Below are positions 446-41,610 of a stretch of DNA of 41,610 nucleotides, one piece after another. A model generated the notes under the pieces. The model was not told where the DNA came from, made no database searches, and saw only the letters and a program-made list of their open reading frames with translations. Source of the DNA: a virus. A program made the translations under genes and the position numbers. The stretch is from the IMG/VR virus record IMGVR_UViG_3300027796_000020, positions 1-41,610 of that record; one strand, 5' to 3'. Within the stretch, counting starts at the first letter, position 1. Every line of letters begins with the position of its first letter.

Positions 446-2851
446 ATGTACGATATTCCCTTAATTAAATCCAGAATCAACTGCCTCGAATACGCCCAAC
501 GCATGGGTATTGCGGTGCGTAAGGATGGGGACCGTTGCAGATCACCGCTAAGACCGTCTGCGGACAATAAGAGCGCATTTTCTGTTCACCGTGACTATTG
601 GCACGATTTCGTGTCGGGCGATTCTGGGGACGTTATAGACCTCTCTGCAGCGATTAATCACAACGGCGATAGGGGGCTTGCTATACAAGAGCTTGCAAGG
701 CTCACAGGCGTTATTTCAGAGAAGGACTATATTGATTGGCAACAGCACACGCAACGGCAGGTGTCGCTTATTCAGGGGTGGCACGAGGACTTGAGAACAT
801 GTGACCGTGAATACCTGCACAAGCGAAGAATCACAGACGAAACAATCAACGCCTTGCGTATCGGTTACACAGGAATGGGGACAGAGGTTATTGTCAAGGG
901 CGAAAAGATATACAACTTCGCCTCGGGTCGAATCTCTGTTCCGACTTACAAAAACGGCTATGTGTGTTCGTGGGTCGCTCGGGCAACTCGGGATGAGCAG
1001 CAGCCCAAATACCTCAAGCCGCCGATAAACGACTACACCGAGTACGAACCTTGGGGACTGCATACCCTCAACCGTTCAACGGATAAGCTCTATATTGCCG
1101 AGGGGTGCTTTGACGCTCTTTCAATCGACCAAAGCGGATTCCCTGTTCTCGCAAGTATGGGAGGTTACTTCGGCAAAGAAACCCTTAAAAATGTCCTGTC
1201 TATCGCAAAGGATTACTCATGTGTTGTTCTAACCTTTGACACCGATAACGCAGGGAAGAAGTTCACAATCGACTTTGGCAATGTTTTGTTTCTGCATAAA
1301 ATTACATTTATGGTTGCCGAGATTCCGTATAAATATAAGGATATTTCGGATTTTTATGCAGACGGAAACGAGATTAAGAACCTCACGCTAAAAGATGGAA
1401 TAGCCCATCTTGCAACTAATATCACGAACAAAGACGAGTTTAAGGAGTTTGCGTATAAAGCCGCGAGAATTATGGATAGAGCCGAACTCGCGGAACTCTT
1501 TGAAACTGTCGGAAAAACCGAAACATTCAGCCGAGTGTGGTTAAAGGAAGTCCAATCGTCCTGTTTCCATGCACCGCCCGAACCCATAATCGTTGCTGAA
1601 ATCCTCAAGGAACACAAACTGCTGTATGTCGCCAATGTTGGGTTCTATGAATACACACCGCAAGGGCGTTGGAAATGGCTTGATGATAAAGTTATTGAGG
1701 GCTATATCTCGGACACGCTCGGTGGGTTTACATCGGGTGGGAAGCTCGAACCCATTAAGAAACTTATGCAAGCGGAGATATTTGGTTCCCAAGAATTTGA
1801 CCGAGCGCCTGTTGTTAATTTCATCAACGGAACACTCGAACTCGACACAGGCAAATTCAGAGAACACTCGCAAGATGATTACTGCTCTATTCAACTTTCG
1901 TTCCCATACTTGCCGGAAGCAACAGCCCCCCGTTGGGAGCAATTCGTGGAAGAAATCACAGCCGAGGACGCTAAGCGACAAGAGAATCTCCAATTCATTG
2001 CGGGCTATGCGTTGTTCTCTGATTGTCGCCATGAAAAGATATTCGTGTTCACAGGGGACGGAAGCAACGGCAAGACCATCTACACAAAGGTTCTCGAACA
2101 ACTCTATGGAGTTGAGAATGTGACCCATGTAAATCCTCAAGGTATCACCGAATCGTTTCAGCTTATCCACTTGCGTTCATCTATGCTCAATATCGCAGGG
2201 GAAATCAAATCCGACCTTTCTGCGACCGAGGAAACGCTCAAGCAGATCGCGTCAGGTGAAACCATCCAAGCGTGTTATAAGTCAAAGAACTTTGTGCAAT
2301 TCAAATCTCGAGCCAAACTTATCTTTTGCTGTAACGGTCAGTTGAGATCATCTGACACATCAGACGGACTTGCAAGGCGTTTGACCATCATAGACTTCCC
2401 TTGTAAGTTTGTTGAGTTCCCCGACAAATCAGACCCCTATCAACGCGAGAAGGACATATCCTTGTATGACAAACTTATCCCCGAACTGTCAGGAATATTC
2501 AACTGGGCTTATCAAGGTTACAAGGATTTGTTGCACTTTGGCAGCTTCACAGAAACAGACGAACACTCCGAACTCATGAAAGCGTTCCGTCAAGCGTCCA
2601 ACCCCATCGAGTGCTTTGTTGACGATTTTATGGACGACCCGCCCAAGCGCATATCTCGTTCAGACCTCTACCGCGACTATTCGGAATGGTGCGAAAACAA
2701 CGGACACCGACCATTATCCTCAACCAGATTCCACCCCGAGTTTCGCCGCATTACCAAGAAAACTTACGAGGATTACTGTGCAACCGTCAGGAATGCAAAC
2801 GGCACAGAATCTAAGGAAAGGGGGTATAAAATCTGGGGACAAGCAGATTGA
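446..2851 (+). CDS. Primase-helicase (TOPRIM plus SF3/D5-like helicase, P4-type)
   Basis: An 801-residue replication protein. The N-terminal ~90 residues resemble a CHC2-type primase zinc-binding domain (R-S-P-L-R-P, then DYWHDFVSGDSGDVIDL) but lack a clear full set of zinc cysteines. A TOPRIM domain follows at about residues 210-285: YIAEGCFDALS gives the acidic Glu, and LTFDTDNAGKK the DxD. The C-terminal half is a superfamily 3 helicase of the P4/D5 primase family. It has Walker A GDGSNGKT near 536-543, Walker B LNIAGEI near 580, and a sensor/arginine finger around IFCCNGQLR and DGLARRL. By family it should prime and unwind DNA at the phage origin. The iteron cluster begins inside its last codons, a typical arrangement for an initiator helicase beside its origin. 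A GGGAG ribosome binding site precedes the ATG. Confidence 0.93.
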   Translation: MYDIPLIKSRINCLEYAQRMGIAVRKDGDRCRSPLRPSADNKSAFSVHRDYWHDFVSGDSGDVIDLSAAINHNGDRGLAIQELARLTGVISEKDYIDWQQHTQRQVSLIQGWHEDLRTCDREYLHKRRITDETINALRIGYTGMGTEVIVKGEKIYNFASGRISVPTYKNGYVCSWVARATRDEQQPKYLKPPINDYTEYEPWGLHTLNRSTDKLYIAEGCFDALSIDQSGFPVLASMGGYFGKETLKNVLSIAKDYSCVVLTFDTDNAGKKFTIDFGNVLFLHKITFMVAEIPYKYKDISDFYADGNEIKNLTLKDGIAHLATNITNKDEFKEFAYKAARIMDRAELAELFETVGKTETFSRVWLKEVQSSCFHAPPEPIIVAEILKEHKLLYVANVGFYEYTPQGRWKWLDDKVIEGYISDTLGGFTSGGKLEPIKKLMQAEIFGSQEFDRAPVVNFINGTLELDTGKFREHSQDDYCSIQLSFPYLPEATAPRWEQFVEEITAEDAKRQENLQFIAGYALFSDCRHEKIFVFTGDGSNGKTIYTKVLEQLYGVENVTHVNPQGITESFQLIHLRSSMLNIAGEIKSDLSATEETLKQIASGETIQACYKSKNFVQFKSRAKLIFCCNGQLRSSDTSDGLARRLTIIDFPCKFVEFPDKSDPYQREKDISLYDKLIPELSGIFNWAYQGYKDLLHFGSFTETDEHSELMKAFRQASNPIECFVDDFMDDPPKRISRSDLYRDYSEWCENNGHRPLSSTRFHPEFRRITKKTYEDYCATVRNANGTESKERGYKIWGQAD

Positions 2852-3090
2852 TTTTACCTGTCCCCAACCTGTCACCAAAACGGGCGATAAACCTAAAAAC
2901 GGCAATCTGGTGACAAGTAAACGAAAAGTGCCTGTCCCCAGAAATAACGGCTTAACCATGCGCTTAAATGGCATAAAAATAGCGGTGACAAGAAGATACA
3001 TTCAAAAGGTTTTTGAATCAATTCTATATAATATATTATATATAATCAATTTATAGAGTTTCTTTTTCAAATCCCGTTTGCCTGTCACCA
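2834..3090. other. Putative replication origin: seven iterons, hairpin and AT-rich palindrome
   Basis: A 10-base motif, TGGKGACARG (K=G/T, R=A/G; the 2983 copy begins with C), occurs seven times. Forward copies are at 2834-2843, 2908-2917 and 2983-2992. Reverse-complement copies (CCTGTCMCCA) are at 2857-2866, 2868-2877, 2931-2940 and 3081-3090. Between the sixth and seventh copies lie a hairpin with 8-bp arms (3000-3007 with 3011-3018) and an 18-bp perfect AT palindrome (3025-3042) within a long AT stretch that could melt easily. Iterons plus an AT-rich element directly after the helicase gene are the usual features of a theta-type phage origin. Origin function is inferred. Confidence 0.75.
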
Positions 3091-3111: not shown

Positions 3112-3318
3112 ATGTCAACAGGAATTAAAATTGATGGCGAAAAATATATCGGTCATACATTCCGCGGAATAGAAATAATCGGCGTTTATCGAATGCCTAC
3201 TGGTGCATGGGGCGCAGAGGTAAAGTGCAAATGTGGCAAGGTCACTAAAATGCTATTAAGAACAGCGTTAGGATTAAACGTCTGCACTCACAAAAAAAGA
3301 GGTAAATCCAGTGATTAA
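3112..3318 (+). CDS. Small zinc-binding protein, AP2/HNH-associated type
   Basis: A 68-residue protein preceded by a strong GGAGGTGA site. Its pattern (G-x-x-F near the start, a tryptophan, then CKCGK and a later C-T-H) resembles the short N-terminal zinc-binding module found on AP2-domain homing endonucleases and related phage DNA-binding proteins, in which CxCG is followed by a basic segment. Only the zinc module is present; there is no nuclease domain. It is the first gene after the putative origin and overlaps the next gene by eight bases. The function is unknown; a nucleic-acid-binding role is plausible. Confidence 0.55.
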   Translation: MSTGIKIDGEKYIGHTFRGIEIIGVYRMPTGAWGAEVKCKCGKVTKMLLRTALGLNVCTHKKRGKSSD

Positions 3319-3595
3319 GACAAGCAAAGAAAATGTCCTTAAAAACATCGAATGTTTTCTCCAATTTTCGCGCAAGAGAGGATATGGAATGTATCAGCCG
3401 GACATATCGAAAGACACAGGACTTACCCAAAGCCAACTCTCGAATTATGAGAACGGAAAAATGTTGCCAAGTTTACTCGCCGCCATTGCAATCGCTGACT
3501 GCTTCGATGTGTCGCTCGACTATTTGGTTGGGAGGTGTGAGAATAAGTTAGCGCATAAGACTAAAAAGGGATTGACTAAATATAAGGAGGATTAA
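3311..3595 (+). CDS. XRE-family HTH regulator
   Basis: A 94-residue protein with one helix-turn-helix of the Cro/CI (XRE) type at about residues 18-75. The recognisable core is DISKDTGLTQSQLSNYENGK, followed by the typical ending SLDYLVGRCE. The start is GTG at 3311, overlapping the preceding gene; an ATG at 3387 would remove part of the domain. The C-terminal tail is lysine-rich. It lies between the origin and the terminase genes, so it may control the early-to-late change, but that role is inferred. Confidence 0.8.
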   Translation: MIKTSKENVLKNIECFLQFSRKRGYGMYQPDISKDTGLTQSQLSNYENGKMLPSLLAAIAIADCFDVSLDYLVGRCENKLAHKTKKGLTKYKED

Positions 3596-4377: not shown

Positions 4378-4963
4378 ACCGCCTAAGCCTAAAGAAGTTA
4401 CTGCTGATAACATAGAAAGCGCAGGTGAGGAGATAGTAAAAACAAAACGGAGAGCGCCCGGTGATATGATTGCGGGATCGTATGCTAAAAAAGACGATGT
4501 TTCCAGAATCCTAACCAACTGTATGAAGTGGTATCAACTTTCTCCCGTTCAATCGCTGGATGAACTCCAATCACGCATAGGCGATTTCTTCGTTACCTGC
4601 ATAAGCACAGGGGAAATCCCCACAGTTGAGAAACTTTGCCTCGCTACGGGATATGACCGCAGAACTATCTGGACTTGGGAAACTGGCGAAGCGGTGTCTA
4701 AGTTGGGTACAGGGGCAATGGACATCATCAAAAAAGCAAAGGATTTTCTCGCAACATTTGAGAGCGAAATGGTCACGGAAGGCAAAATAAATCCGATAGT
4801 TTACATCTTCCGCGCTAAAAATTACTTCGGAATGAAGGATCAGCAGGAATATGTCCTGACACCCAACGGAGCGTTAGGAAATGATGGCGACCCATCGACT
4901 ATCGCAGGGAAGTACAAGGTGGGGTTGCCCGAAGCAATCATAGAAGCAAAGGAGAGCAAATAG
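4355..4963 (+). CDS. terS: Terminase small subunit
   Basis: A 202-residue protein that should recognise phage DNA and load the large subunit for headful or site-directed packaging. The ATG at 4355 has GAGGAGG at 4336-4342; the longer open frame from 4334 has no sensible site. The N-terminus is a basic, proline-rich tail (KKGRPPKPK). A central helix-turn-helix-like segment follows (VEKLCLATGYDRRTIWTWET), then a conserved oligomerisation region (NPIVYIFRAKNYFGMKDQ), which I recall from Clostridia phage terminase small subunits. Unusually, terL does not follow directly: about 3.7 kb of accessory genes separate the two terminase genes. Confidence 0.8.
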   Translation: MEPVKKGRPPKPKEVTADNIESAGEEIVKTKRRAPGDMIAGSYAKKDDVSRILTNCMKWYQLSPVQSLDELQSRIGDFFVTCISTGEIPTVEKLCLATGYDRRTIWTWETGEAVSKLGTGAMDIIKKAKDFLATFESEMVTEGKINPIVYIFRAKNYFGMKDQQEYVLTPNGALGNDGDPSTIAGKYKVGLPEAIIEAKESK

Positions 4964-5556
4964 TGGAAGAATGGCGAGACGCAATTGGGTTTGAGGGATT
5001 ATACGAAGTCAACAACTTTGGTAGAGTGAGGCACAAAGACGGTCAAGAGATAAACGGAAGCCTTAATTCGTATGGCTATCGGGCATATTCTCTATTCAAA
5101 GATGGCGGTAGAATCACCGCAAAGGGGCATCGGCTTGTCGCGGAAGCATTCATCCCAAACCCGGATAGCAAGAGAAACGTAAATCACAAAGACGGTGACA
5201 GAGATAACAACTTTGTGGACAACCTCGAATGGGTAACGCATGGCGAAAATCTGAATCACGCACTCAAAGAACTCTGTATCGACTATTCCGCGAAACCCGT
5301 GGCGCAATTAACGCTAAGCGGTGATGTTGTGGCAATATGGGCAAATGCTTCAATCCCCTCTCGACTATTGGGCATAAGTTCGCAGCTTGTGTCTGCGTGT
5401 TGCCGAGGCACAGCGAAAAGCACTGGCGACTATTTGTGGCAATATGCCGAAATCACATTCGAGCGAGGGATTAAAGAAATGCAAGCTGCCGCGCTTCGGC
5501 AAAAGCTATCGACTATTACACGGGAACTGGCAACTCTTGAAAATGATTTAAAATAG
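4963..5556 (+). CDS. HNH homing endonuclease with NUMOD4 domain
   Basis: A 197-residue protein starting at a GTG that overlaps the terS stop. The first ~25 residues form a NUMOD4 motif (EEWRDAIGFEGLYEVNNFGR). An HNH nuclease core spans about residues 48-95 (GHRLVAEAF, then NVNHKDGDRDNN and NLEWVTHGENLNHA). A C-terminal segment with ISSQLVSACCRG may be a NUMOD1-type DNA-binding helix-turn-helix. Such enzymes cut a specific site in related phages lacking the gene and so spread themselves. Its position beside a terminase gene is common for free-standing homing endonucleases. It marks the left edge of the cassette that separates terS from terL. Confidence 0.85.
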   Translation: MEEWRDAIGFEGLYEVNNFGRVRHKDGQEINGSLNSYGYRAYSLFKDGGRITAKGHRLVAEAFIPNPDSKRNVNHKDGDRDNNFVDNLEWVTHGENLNHALKELCIDYSAKPVAQLTLSGDVVAIWANASIPSRLLGISSQLVSACCRGTAKSTGDYLWQYAEITFERGIKEMQAAALRQKLSTITRELATLENDLK

Positions 5557-7117: not shown

Positions 7118-7182
7118 GTTATTTCCGTCCTTTCGTCTGCGCCGTCCTGCGCTGCGGTGTGATCTGGGTGATCACTGAATAC

Positions 7183-10453: not shown

Positions 10454-11494
10454 ATGTTGAGCTGGAAACTCATCGCGGAAGATCTATTTCGGAAGTATGG
10501 CAAGAACTGGTCAAAAATCGCAGACGAAATGATGTATTTATTCCCGGGGTTAAAGCACTTTGAGGTTAAGGAAAAAATCAGGACGCATATAAGGCGAACG
10601 GCGCTGTTTAAGATGGCTGCCACGCAAGACGATGAATACGATATAGACATTTCGGGAATTGACCGAAAGCAATTCAAGCCCCCGATCGTAAAAGCGGTTG
10701 ACAGAAAAATGATGGCAGAGGTCAACATTGCCGACTTGCATCTTGGCAAACTCTGTTGGCATGGCGACACGCCAGAGAACTACGATTACAAAATCGCAAG
10801 AGACACGTTTTATTACATAATCGCGGATGTTATCGAAAACCTCAAAGGAAAACCGATAGAATACATAACATTCGTTTGGACTAATGACTTTTTCAACTCG
10901 GACAATGAGCAGAAGACTACAACAGCGGGAACACCGCAGGACACAGACATTCGGAGCAAGAAACTGTTCAATGTAGGCGTTGAGATGTTGGTGCGCGGCG
11001 TGGAAATGTTGGCGCGTGTTGCACCAATTAAGATGTTTTATACCCCTTCCAACCATGACGAATCGAGCAGTTACCACGCACTTAAATATCTCGAAGCGTG
11101 GTTCAGAAACGACCCAAACGTGACAATCAACACGGACGCATACCCTCGAAAGTATCAATTATATGGAAACACGCTGCTCGGTTACTGTCACGGAGCGAAA
11201 GAGGGTACGAGCAAGAGCAAAGAAAAAGCATCACGCCTCGCATCGCTTATGCCTCTCGAAGCAAGGGAGATGTGGGGACAAGCCAAGTTCTGCGAAATGC
11301 ACACGGCACACTTGCACAGCGAACACGTTTACGAGGAAATCAACGGGGTTATCGTACGCAGGGTATCAAGCCCAACCGCCACGGATGTATGGCATGCAGA
11401 AAACGCATATATCGGGTCAGTTCGCAAAGCGCAAACGTTTGTATATGACAAAGAGCGGGGTCACATACTGACCATTAACACGCCAGTTACATAA
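10454..11494 (+). CDS. Metallophosphoesterase (calcineurin-like) with N-terminal DNA-binding-like segment
   Basis: A 346-residue protein. The first ~50 residues (DLFRKYGKNWSKIADEM) resemble a Myb/SANT-like helix bundle. The rest carries the metal-binding motifs of calcineurin-type phosphoesterases in order: ADLHLGK near 93-99 (DxH), WTNDFFNSDN near 137-146, PSNHDE near 198-203 (GNHD-like), YCHG near 242-245 and TAHLHSEH near 282-289 (GHxH-like). Family members hydrolyse phosphodiesters in nucleic acids or nucleotides. Similar genes lie beside terL in several Firmicutes phages and may process DNA during packaging. The substrate is unknown. GAGGTGGG precedes the ATG. Confidence 0.85.
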   Translation: MLSWKLIAEDLFRKYGKNWSKIADEMMYLFPGLKHFEVKEKIRTHIRRTALFKMAATQDDEYDIDISGIDRKQFKPPIVKAVDRKMMAEVNIADLHLGKLCWHGDTPENYDYKIARDTFYYIIADVIENLKGKPIEYITFVWTNDFFNSDNEQKTTTAGTPQDTDIRSKKLFNVGVEMLVRGVEMLARVAPIKMFYTPSNHDESSSYHALKYLEAWFRNDPNVTINTDAYPRKYQLYGNTLLGYCHGAKEGTSKSKEKASRLASLMPLEAREMWGQAKFCEMHTAHLHSEHVYEEINGVIVRRVSSPTATDVWHAENAYIGSVRKAQTFVYDKERGHILTINTPVT

Positions 11495-30367: not shown

Positions 30368-30587
30368 TTTCGTGTGCAATTTCGTGTGCATTATGATTAC
30401 TATTTAGGCGTATTTTACTATCATTGGTGATAGTTATCAATCATATCAAACAAGCAAAAATCCGCTCTGTTAAGCCATTATCGCTCAACGGTGCGGATTT
30501 CTTTTTGGTGCGGGTAACAGGGATCGAACCTGTCACATACCGCTATTTTATGCGGTTTATCCGTTACCGTGTGCAATAGCGTGTGCA
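30368..30587. other. attP: attP: tRNA 3'-end core flanked by paired integrase arm sites
   Basis: The centre (30506-30533, read leftward) is the 3' end of a tRNA: T-stem ACAGG/CCTGT, loop TTCGATC, acceptor strand TACCCGC, base A and CCA. CGTGTGCA occurs four times in the same direction: 30371-30378, 30383-30390, 30568-30575 and 30580-30587. Each pair has a 12-base period and the pairs flank the core. The right pair lies in the end of the integrase gene. These have the layout of arm-type integrase sites. A perfect 7-bp hairpin (30417-30423 with 30428-30434) lies between the left pair and the core. Confidence 0.8.
30450..30507. terminator. Bidirectional terminator ending the late region
   Basis: AAATCCGC (30458-30465) pairs with GCGGATTT (30493-30500); inside, GTTAAGC pairs with GCTCAAC (one G-U). 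T-rich runs follow in both directions (CTTTTTGG rightward, TTTTTGC leftward). It separates late rightward transcription from the integrase operon. Confidence 0.75.
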
Positions 30588-31639
30588 ATACCGTCAAAAT
30601 ACTTATTGCTAATATCGTCAAATTCGCTTTGCTTTTCAGCCATTAAGTGTTGATAAACCGTCTGTAACATATGGTCGGTTGAGTGTCCCAGACGGGCGGC
30701 AGCATACTTATTCGGAACGCCGAGAGCGAGCATGACCGAAGCGGAATAGTGGCGCAGGGCGTGGAATGTAACATCGTCCATGCCCGACAGATGGGCGGCA
30801 ACCGTATATCGGTGAGCGATTGCGCCGACCGTCAAAGTCACAATGCGTTCATCGGGCTTCTTACCCTTTATCACACGCTCAATCACTTCCGCAACATATT
30901 TCGGAACGCTCACGGTTCGTGTGCTTTTGGTGGTCTTTGTTCGGCTTTCGACAAACTCCCCATCACCCGCATAAAGATAGGCGCGTTGAATTTTCAATGT
31001 GCTTTTTTTCTTATCCCAATCGGTTGGTTTTAGCCCCATTATTTCCGATCTTCGCATACCGCAAAAAGCCGCAAGGATAATCAGTATTTCCATTTCCGTG
31101 TTTCGGACTATATCGAGCAGACACTTAATTTGGTCAGAGGTTGGTATCGCAATTTCAGATTTATTCTTTTGAACGAATACCACATCATCGCATGGGGCGT
31201 ATTTGTCAATGTGCTTAACGGCGGTGCAGACCACGCCATATACATTGCGTATAGTTTTGGGCGCAAGGGTTTTAACTCTTTTGCTTAACTTCATTTCAGC
31301 GTTGATTGCCGATTGGTAGTCGGTCGCTTTTAGTTGCGATATGTGCTTCCCCATAAGCCCGACAAACGATTTATCTCTCACCCTTTTATATTCCCGATAG
31401 GTGGTTGGGGAAAGGATATTGCTTCTCGATTCGATATATGCGTCAACCGCTTCGCCAACTGTATATCCGCTTTCCGCTTTGCGCTTGCGTTGTTCCTGAT
31501 ATTCCAAAGCAGCATATACCGCAGAATTTTCGGACGGTTCGGTAATGGATATTCGCTTTCCACTTTCGTCTATTACTTGTACACGCCAGTTGCCGGACGG
31601 AAGTTCGTGGGCTTTCGGGACGCTTTTATTTTTAGCCAT
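30557..31639 (-). CDS. int: Tyrosine integrase
   Basis: A 360-residue phage integrase. The N-terminal ~60 residues form an arm-binding-type domain (ELPSGNWRVQVIDESGKRIS), then a SAM-like core-binding domain (AVDAYIESRSNILSPTTYRE). The catalytic domain shows the conserved Arg in AFCGMRRSEIMGL near 195, HALRH near 292-296 and the active-site Tyr in TVYQHL near 326. It inserts phage DNA at a host tRNA 3' end through attP. The last residues (GIAHAIAHGNG) are encoded by two of the four arm-type repeats. The start overlaps the stop of the ImmA-like gene by one base, so they are co-transcribed leftward. Confidence 0.95.
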   Translation of the reverse strand: MAKNKSVPKAHELPSGNWRVQVIDESGKRISITEPSENSAVYAALEYQEQRKRKAESGYTVGEAVDAYIESRSNILSPTTYREYKRVRDKSFVGLMGKHISQLKATDYQSAINAEMKLSKRVKTLAPKTIRNVYGVVCTAVKHIDKYAPCDDVVFVQKNKSEIAIPTSDQIKCLLDIVRNTEMEILIILAAFCGMRRSEIMGLKPTDWDKKKSTLKIQRAYLYAGDGEFVESRTKTTKSTRTVSVPKYVAEVIERVIKGKKPDERIVTLTVGAIAHRYTVAAHLSGMDDVTFHALRHYSASVMLALGVPNKYAAARLGHSTDHMLQTVYQHLMAEKQSEFDDISNKYFDGIAHAIAHGNG

Positions 31640-32399: not shown

Positions 32400-32533
32400 C
32401 CCCTTTCGTGTGATGACTATATTGTACTATTATAAATTACAAATTACAATAGAATGTCACAATATTACTATTTTTGAGTGTTGACAAACTACAATAAATA
32501 GTTTAAAATGAACACAAGAAACGAGGTGATTGG
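32400..32533. promoter_or_regulatory. Lysis-lysogeny switch: divergent promoters and operators
   Basis: Rightward: TTGACA (32481-32486), a 17-base spacer, TAAAAT (32504-32509). Leftward: TATAAT (32434-32429) with a poor -35 box. TACAAT occurs at 32445-32450 and 32490-32495, and its inverse ATTGTA at 32421-32426. TATTGTA (32420-32426) and TACAATA (32445-32451) form a perfect inverted pair around the leftward -10 box. These are likely repressor or Cro sites. Confidence 0.65.
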
Positions 32534-41304: not shown

Positions 41305-41601
41305 ATGGAAAAATCCAAACAAGAACTGCTCGACAAACTCAAAACCGCCGAGCGCAGAATCTACTTCCTCGAAAGAGAAAACGCCATATTGAAGTACGAC
41401 CTTGCAAGCGCAGAAATCAAAGTGGGTCAAGCCAAAAGAATGTTGATTCTTGTCCGGCAAGTCGAGAACGGCATGTCCGAGATCAGCGAATCCGACAAAG
41501 AGCGCAACTGGTATCAACCGACACCGACCATCATGGCGAATGAACAATACAATTATGTGAACGACACAGCAGAGTTTAATAAAAATGGAGGGCTTGAATG
41601 A
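41305..41601 (+). CDS. Small coiled-coil protein (complete copy)
   Basis: A 98-residue protein; the ATG at 41305 has AAAGGAGGA about ten bases upstream. The first ~55 residues form a coiled coil (KSKQELLDKLKTAERRIYFL, ENAILKYDLASAEIKVGQ), followed by a polar, probably disordered end. It overlaps the next gene by four bases (ATGA), as at the start of the window. Confidence 0.75.
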   Translation: MEKSKQELLDKLKTAERRIYFLERENAILKYDLASAEIKVGQAKRMLILVRQVENGMSEISESDKERNWYQPTPTIMANEQYNYVNDTAEFNKNGGLE

Positions 41602-41610
41602 AAATACCTA
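41478..41610. repeat. Right copy of terminal direct repeat
   Basis: It matches positions 1-133 except at 41478 and 41484 (C here, T in the left copy). It shows that the genome continues from 41610 at position 134. The last 13 bases (41598-41610) repeat the start of the HExxH gene at 121. Confidence 0.9.

Follow-up and report, generated by a model that had tools for sequence, protein, structure and literature searches.

A probable Sfi21/SaPI-type replication origin behind the primase-helicase gene of a gut phage, with iterons that differ among its relatives

The DNA analysed here, referred to below as the window, is a stretch of 41,610 nucleotides corresponding to positions 1 to 41,610 of the IMG/VR virus record IMGVR_UViG_3300027796_000020. 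Because a 126-bp exact direct repeat is found at its two ends (8-133 and 41485-41610), the record probably corresponds to a complete genome, circular or circularly permuted, of about 41,477 bp (~41.48 kb). Its genes include those for TerS, TerL and a portal protein (Pfam, PHROGs), as well as one for an integrase (30557-31639). Between TerS and TerL lies a gene (4963-5556) whose product harbors an HNH endonuclease domain and a NUMOD4 motif (Pfam, PHROGs) and is probably a homing endonuclease. A primase-helicase of 801 aa is encoded on the plus strand at 446-2851 (Pfam; DNA primase in PHROGs) and is followed by an array of short repeats, or iterons (2834-3090). The last iteron lies shortly before the ribosome-binding site of the following gene (3112), and a helix-turn-helix (HTH) protein is encoded nearby (3311-3595; Pfam).

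The array had been described as seven copies of TGGKGACARG within 257 bases. A motif scan recovered six exact copies, the seventh, at 2983(+), carrying a single mismatch; once it is counted, the three forward and four reversed copies of that description are all found. Iteron 1 (2834-2843, +, TGGGGACAAG) lies within the last codons of the helicase gene, whose stop codon ends at 2851, so that the array is positioned behind this gene as first described, except for its first copy. Iterons 2 (2857-2866, -, TGGGGACAGG) and 3 (2868-2877, -, TGGTGACAGG) are in tandem with an 11-bp step, followed by iterons 4 (2908-2917, +, TGGTGACAAG) and 5 (2931-2940, -, TGGGGACAGG). Iteron 6 (2983-2992, +, CGGTGACAAG, the copy with one mismatch) forms the left border of an AT-rich block, with its CARG end towards the block, and iteron 7 (3081-3090, -, TGGTGACAGG) forms the right border. 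The cluster stands far above expectation in the shuffled-sequence control, since dinucleotide shuffles of the 41.6-kb record yield on average 0.25 exact copies over its whole length, and the scan of the window confirmed a single further exact copy, at 11273. The alternation between GGGGACA and GGTGACA had been ascribed either to two proteins or to tolerance by one. As both forms occupy equivalent places in one array, tolerance by one protein is the best reading, and the two-protein explanation, for which no evidence was found, was rejected.

The AT-rich block (2993-3080) is 88 bp long, with 80% AT, and is presumed to be the unwinding element, lying as in relatives between convergent iterons. 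Inside it, the 8-bp-arm hairpin (3000-3018, ATTCAAAA-GGT-TTTTGAAT) and the 18-bp perfect AT palindrome (3025-3042, TATATAATATATTATATA) of the preliminary description are both present. When compared with shuffles of the AT-rich block itself, the palindrome is above expectation (P about 0.005) and the hairpin is marginal (P about 0.07). Neither was found conserved when sought in the arrays of relatives, and their role as functional parts of an origin was rejected on this ground. A turning point of the GC skew had also been proposed as a check. The cumulative skew of the linear record does reach a minimum at about 2750, but this minimum vanishes when the sequence is treated as circular (minimum at 32407, detrended minimum at 7155); with no convincing turning point left at the array, the skew was dropped as support.

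The primase-helicase is composed of a Toprim primase part, a D5_N/DUF5906 superfamily 3 (SF3) helicase and a C-terminal Pox_D5-type domain (Pfam). In an AlphaFold model (aa 397-801, mean pLDDT 79), the C-terminal end folds into a winged helix with the order H-H-E-H-H-E-E, which spans aa 718-796 (2597-2833, +), overlaps the Pox_D5 match (aa 718-775) and has its predicted recognition helix at about aa 759-769. The best compact superposition of the model was obtained with the SaPI5 Rep protein (7om0/7ola; rmsd about 4.9, TM 0.70 on query). Through a C-terminal domain, both the SaPI Rep and the SCCmec Cch2 proteins bind iterons located immediately behind the genes that encode them (PMC7581432). 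By analogy, and from the model, the winged helix is presumed to be the iteron-binding domain of the helicase. The N-terminal part, which had been put forward as the DNA binder, is not expected to play this role, given the Pfam matches, the model and the binding mode of these proteins (PMC7581432).

No relatives of the helicase were found in viral or genome collections with a single-sequence query, and a first alignment of 10 helicases was too diverse for searching. The route via TerL was successful, leading to phages with a helicase 40-43% identical to that of the window, and an alignment of four helicases then retrieved loci with 33-74% identity, 30 of them viral and 2 from genomes. Among the relatives are phages of human faecal samples, and the loci in bacterial genome assemblies come from an Oscillospiraceae and from a goat-rectum Clostridia bacterium. 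Nineteen of these relatives, non-redundant and with a readable 3' flank, were used for flank counts. A mixed-orientation iteron array is located directly 3' of the helicase gene in 15 of them, mostly with 5-11 copies versus 0.01-0.3 expected in the shuffled flank, the weaker arrays being those of L110 (3 copies) and L114 (4 copies). Only degenerate copies are found behind the helicase in L097 and L099, and no array was found there in L109 and L116.

A common plan, read off motif positions rather than from a formal model, links these arrays: outer copies come first, followed by an AT-rich block between convergent copies ('<< > < > [AT] <'). The order is 10> 33< 44< 84> 107< 159> [AT] 257< in the window and 6> 27< 40< 71> 81> 92> 113< 159> 168> [AT] 270< 279< in L105. 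A left-side copy faces the AT block in 16/16 origins, window included, and a convergent right-side copy is found in 14/16; because the relatives share kinship, these counts overstate the number of independent events. Measured from start to start, the copies on either side of the AT block are 98 bp apart in the window and 100-103 bp apart in seven relatives. Beyond this group, the heptamer of the window was sought in other D5 phages and was not found, because each of them has its own iteron, so that de novo repeat detection was needed. Unannotated iteron arrays were thereby found 3' of the D5 primase gene in Streptococcus phage Javan531 (L035:4230-4600), Listeria phage LP-101 (L036:4101-4390) and Lactobacillus phage CL2 (L038:4044-4520). 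The 3' gap of the helicase gene contains no iterons in several further D5 phages outside the group, L034, L040 and L044 among them.

Within the group, the plan is kept and the repeat sequence is not. In a common orientation the iteron of the window reads CCTGTCMCCA, and those of the relatives read TTTGACTAGG, CTTGACCACC, CCTGCCACAC, CTTGGTACAC, CTTGGCACAC, CTTGGAACAC, CCTGTGACAC, CCTGTCACAC, CTTGAACCAC, CTTGTGTAAT, CTTGTTGAAC, CTTGCAACAC and TCTGTCATAA. The 16 initiator-iteron pairs, window included, thus comprise 14 distinct repeat sequences. Positions 3-4 are TG in 16/16, with the reservation that consensus repeats and register were chosen by hand from the sequences, a procedure biased towards a shared TG, and that the polarity of L093 was set to match its relatives. 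Positions 5-6 are hypervariable, with all four bases seen. A matrix of cross-counts is largely diagonal when exact copies are counted, and cross-matches among sister types appear at one mismatch; the iterons are largely private to each phage. Those of L106 and L107, for instance, differ at one base. In sister pairs with differing iterons, the winged helices are 67-75% identical versus 90-95% for the helicase core, which fits a co-change of winged helix and iteron, although a fast evolution of the C-terminus could also explain it. When iteron distance was correlated with protein distance, the coefficient was highest for the winged helix (r = 0.58), followed by the primase part (0.47) and the helicase core (0.40); shared ancestry confounds all three values, which are suggestive only.

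Phages with another initiator within the same terminase lineage are informative in this respect. The TerL of L046 is 77% identical to that of the window, yet the initiator of this phage is unrelated, being a DUF927 + HTH_56 protein of the SCCmec Cch type, and is immediately followed by an array of 12 copies of ATGTACAA (L046:2999-3400). L082 and L084 have the same type of initiator with an array of GGGTGGAA (L082:3542-3840, with 12 copies counted; L084 near 4628). The TerL kinship of these DUF927 + HTH_56 phages to the window is either close or distant. Because phages of one terminase lineage carry another array with another initiator, the array goes with the initiator and not with the terminase, and these sequences indicate that initiator and array are exchanged as a unit between phages.

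These phages also bear on the proposal that the array is a packaging (pac/cos) site for the small terminase subunit encoded downstream. Repeats close to their own gene are a common target of small terminases, and the proposal must be argued away because TerS starts less than 500 bp from the helicase stop codon in 13 non-redundant relatives (181-492 bp; 1.48 kb in the window). However, TerS homologues without an adjacent initiator (L055, L058, L060, L070, L074, L076 and L077) lack a comparable upstream array, with at most 4 copies of any 8-mer there. Conversely, L093, L094 and L096 have arrays and no TerS match within about 2.8-2.9 kb downstream, and the arrays of L046, L082 and L084 begin near the initiator stop codon, 0.8-1.3 kb ahead of TerS. 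Arrays are moreover found behind SF3 helicases in many unrelated elements, as well as in P4 and Sfi21, and the cos site of Sfi21 is located elsewhere. A packaging site is therefore very improbable. Slightly less credible still is an operator through which the HTH protein or the helicase itself would regulate the downstream operon. The last iteron does lie directly before the ribosome-binding site of the gene at 3112, and the HTH gene is close by, but the genes that follow the array vary among relatives whereas the helicase is constant, and a long AT-rich block surrounded by seven to eleven copies resembles known origins. Autoregulation by the array alongside a role as origin is possible.

A scan of IMG/VR with a DNA pattern alone, which took no account of proteins, identified 17 dense GGKGACA clusters, 11 of them directly 3' of VapE, D5, DUF5906 or DUF927 helicases, at 45-70% G+C. 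Of the others, four adjoin tyrosine integrases, one lies 3 kb from a VapE gene, and one is unassigned. As the pattern required a tandem pair, tandem pairing in these clusters is found by construction; the gene neighbourhood is not. VapE-type primase-helicases of high-GC phages (L002, L004, L012, L021, L025 and L029) go with a TTGGTGACAGG iteron, which is nearly the same as that of the window though these initiators belong to another family. The integrase-side clusters (L006:2209-2446, L014:2703-3004, L017:8388-8672 and L028:1159-1340, the last assigned by eye from sequence) are probably arm-type sites of attP, and it seems that two kinds of protein make use of similar heptamers. That the repeats of the window are themselves integrase arm-type sites beside attP, as these four of the 17 clusters could suggest, can be set aside almost entirely, as its integrase gene is at least 12 kb from the array even on the closed circle and the arrays of relatives stay with the helicase.

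The locus can be compared with several known systems. One is that of the tailed Streptococcus phage Sfi21, whose record annotates a 302-bp non-coding 'origin of replication, phage inhibitory sequence', the function being given as in that record. This origin lies directly 3' of the gene for a D5/SF3 'putative primase', a distant homologue of the window helicase (22% identity, E 2e-16), and contains about eight AGTAAC-type repeats in mixed orientation, with tandem pairs converging on an AT-rich block. The repeat sequence differs, as does the initiator, which is 382 aa long with polymerase/primase in a separate gene. In SaPIs and other PICIs, SF3-type or Cch-type initiators (SaPI5 Rep, SaPIbov1 Rep) have their iterons directly 3' of rep, in two sets on either side of an AT-rich melting region (PMC6092414), and bind DNA through their C-terminus (PMC6092414, PMC7581432), a feature that is predicted for the window. 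In 2018 this organisation was stated to be unlike that of any other known bacterial replicon (PMC6092414). Those elements are satellites, without a full structural gene set, whereas the present ones are phages with terminase and portal genes, TerS, TerL and portal all being encoded by the window. Cch2 of SCCmec, likewise a D5_N-type helicase, uses its C-terminal domain to bind direct repeats situated downstream of the gene that encodes it (PMC7581432), but its putative origin has three 5-nt iterons only and its polymerase-type primase is separate. Finally, directly behind the alpha gene of P4, crr harbors type 1 repeats (GGTGAACA) in mixed orientation, and the alpha protein combines a Toprim-type primase with a C-terminal winged helix through which it binds its repeats (PMC4234260). 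The window protein likewise unites Toprim, SF3 and winged helix domains (Pfam, model). P4 differs in its separate ori, about 2-3 kb past the 5' end of the alpha gene, in the two 120-bp direct repeats of crr, and in a helicase of weak sequence similarity. For a P4-style second cis site, the window shows one cluster and the isolated exact copy at 11273, a count of exact motifs that is blind to a diverged site.

From sequence comparison, structure prediction and analogy, the region 2834-3090 is thus very probably a replication origin of the Sfi21/SaPI (PICI) type, whose iterons would be bound by the adjacent helicase through its C-terminal winged helix. An SF3 (D5/VapE-like) helicase gene lies immediately upstream, multiple short iterons are found directly 3' of it, and iteron sets flank the AT block on both sides, the right set being a single copy. 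The proposal of the preliminary description that the adjacent helicase serves an origin here gains support from the comparison, as array position and plan are kept, repeats change with the initiator, and a replaced initiator comes with a replaced array. Because Sfi21 and the crr of P4 share position and layout, the locus belongs to a known kind of origin, of which it is a new member. The primase-helicase would bind the seven TGGKGACARG iterons, and the iterons on both sides of the 88-bp AT block would place two oppositely facing SF3 rings (hexamers), which, following the SaPI/PICI precedent, would melt the block. The Toprim part could then prime, and replication would start bidirectionally.

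The wide range of private repeats that share a fixed TG within a single phage group seems less familiar, as does the swapping of whole initiator-origin modules; neither of the two was described in the open literature found, subscription literature being outside the scope of the search. One tentative and somewhat doubtful reading is that of a natural initiator-iteron code, in which a near-fixed half (YYTG) and a fast-changing half would be read by a fast-changing winged helix. Each phage would replicate its own origin only. Pressure from rival phages, satellites or decoy origins would drive the diversification of the pairs, and otherwise similar phages would exchange entire initiator-origin modules.

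With the origin reading, a previously unannotated stretch becomes a testable origin, and a layout known from satellites (PICIs) and one well-studied tailed phage would be general in a group of Clostridia phages. The 16 initiator-iteron pairs offer material for reading how a D5-type winged helix selects its DNA, and they allow asking whether origin specificity acts as an exclusion system.
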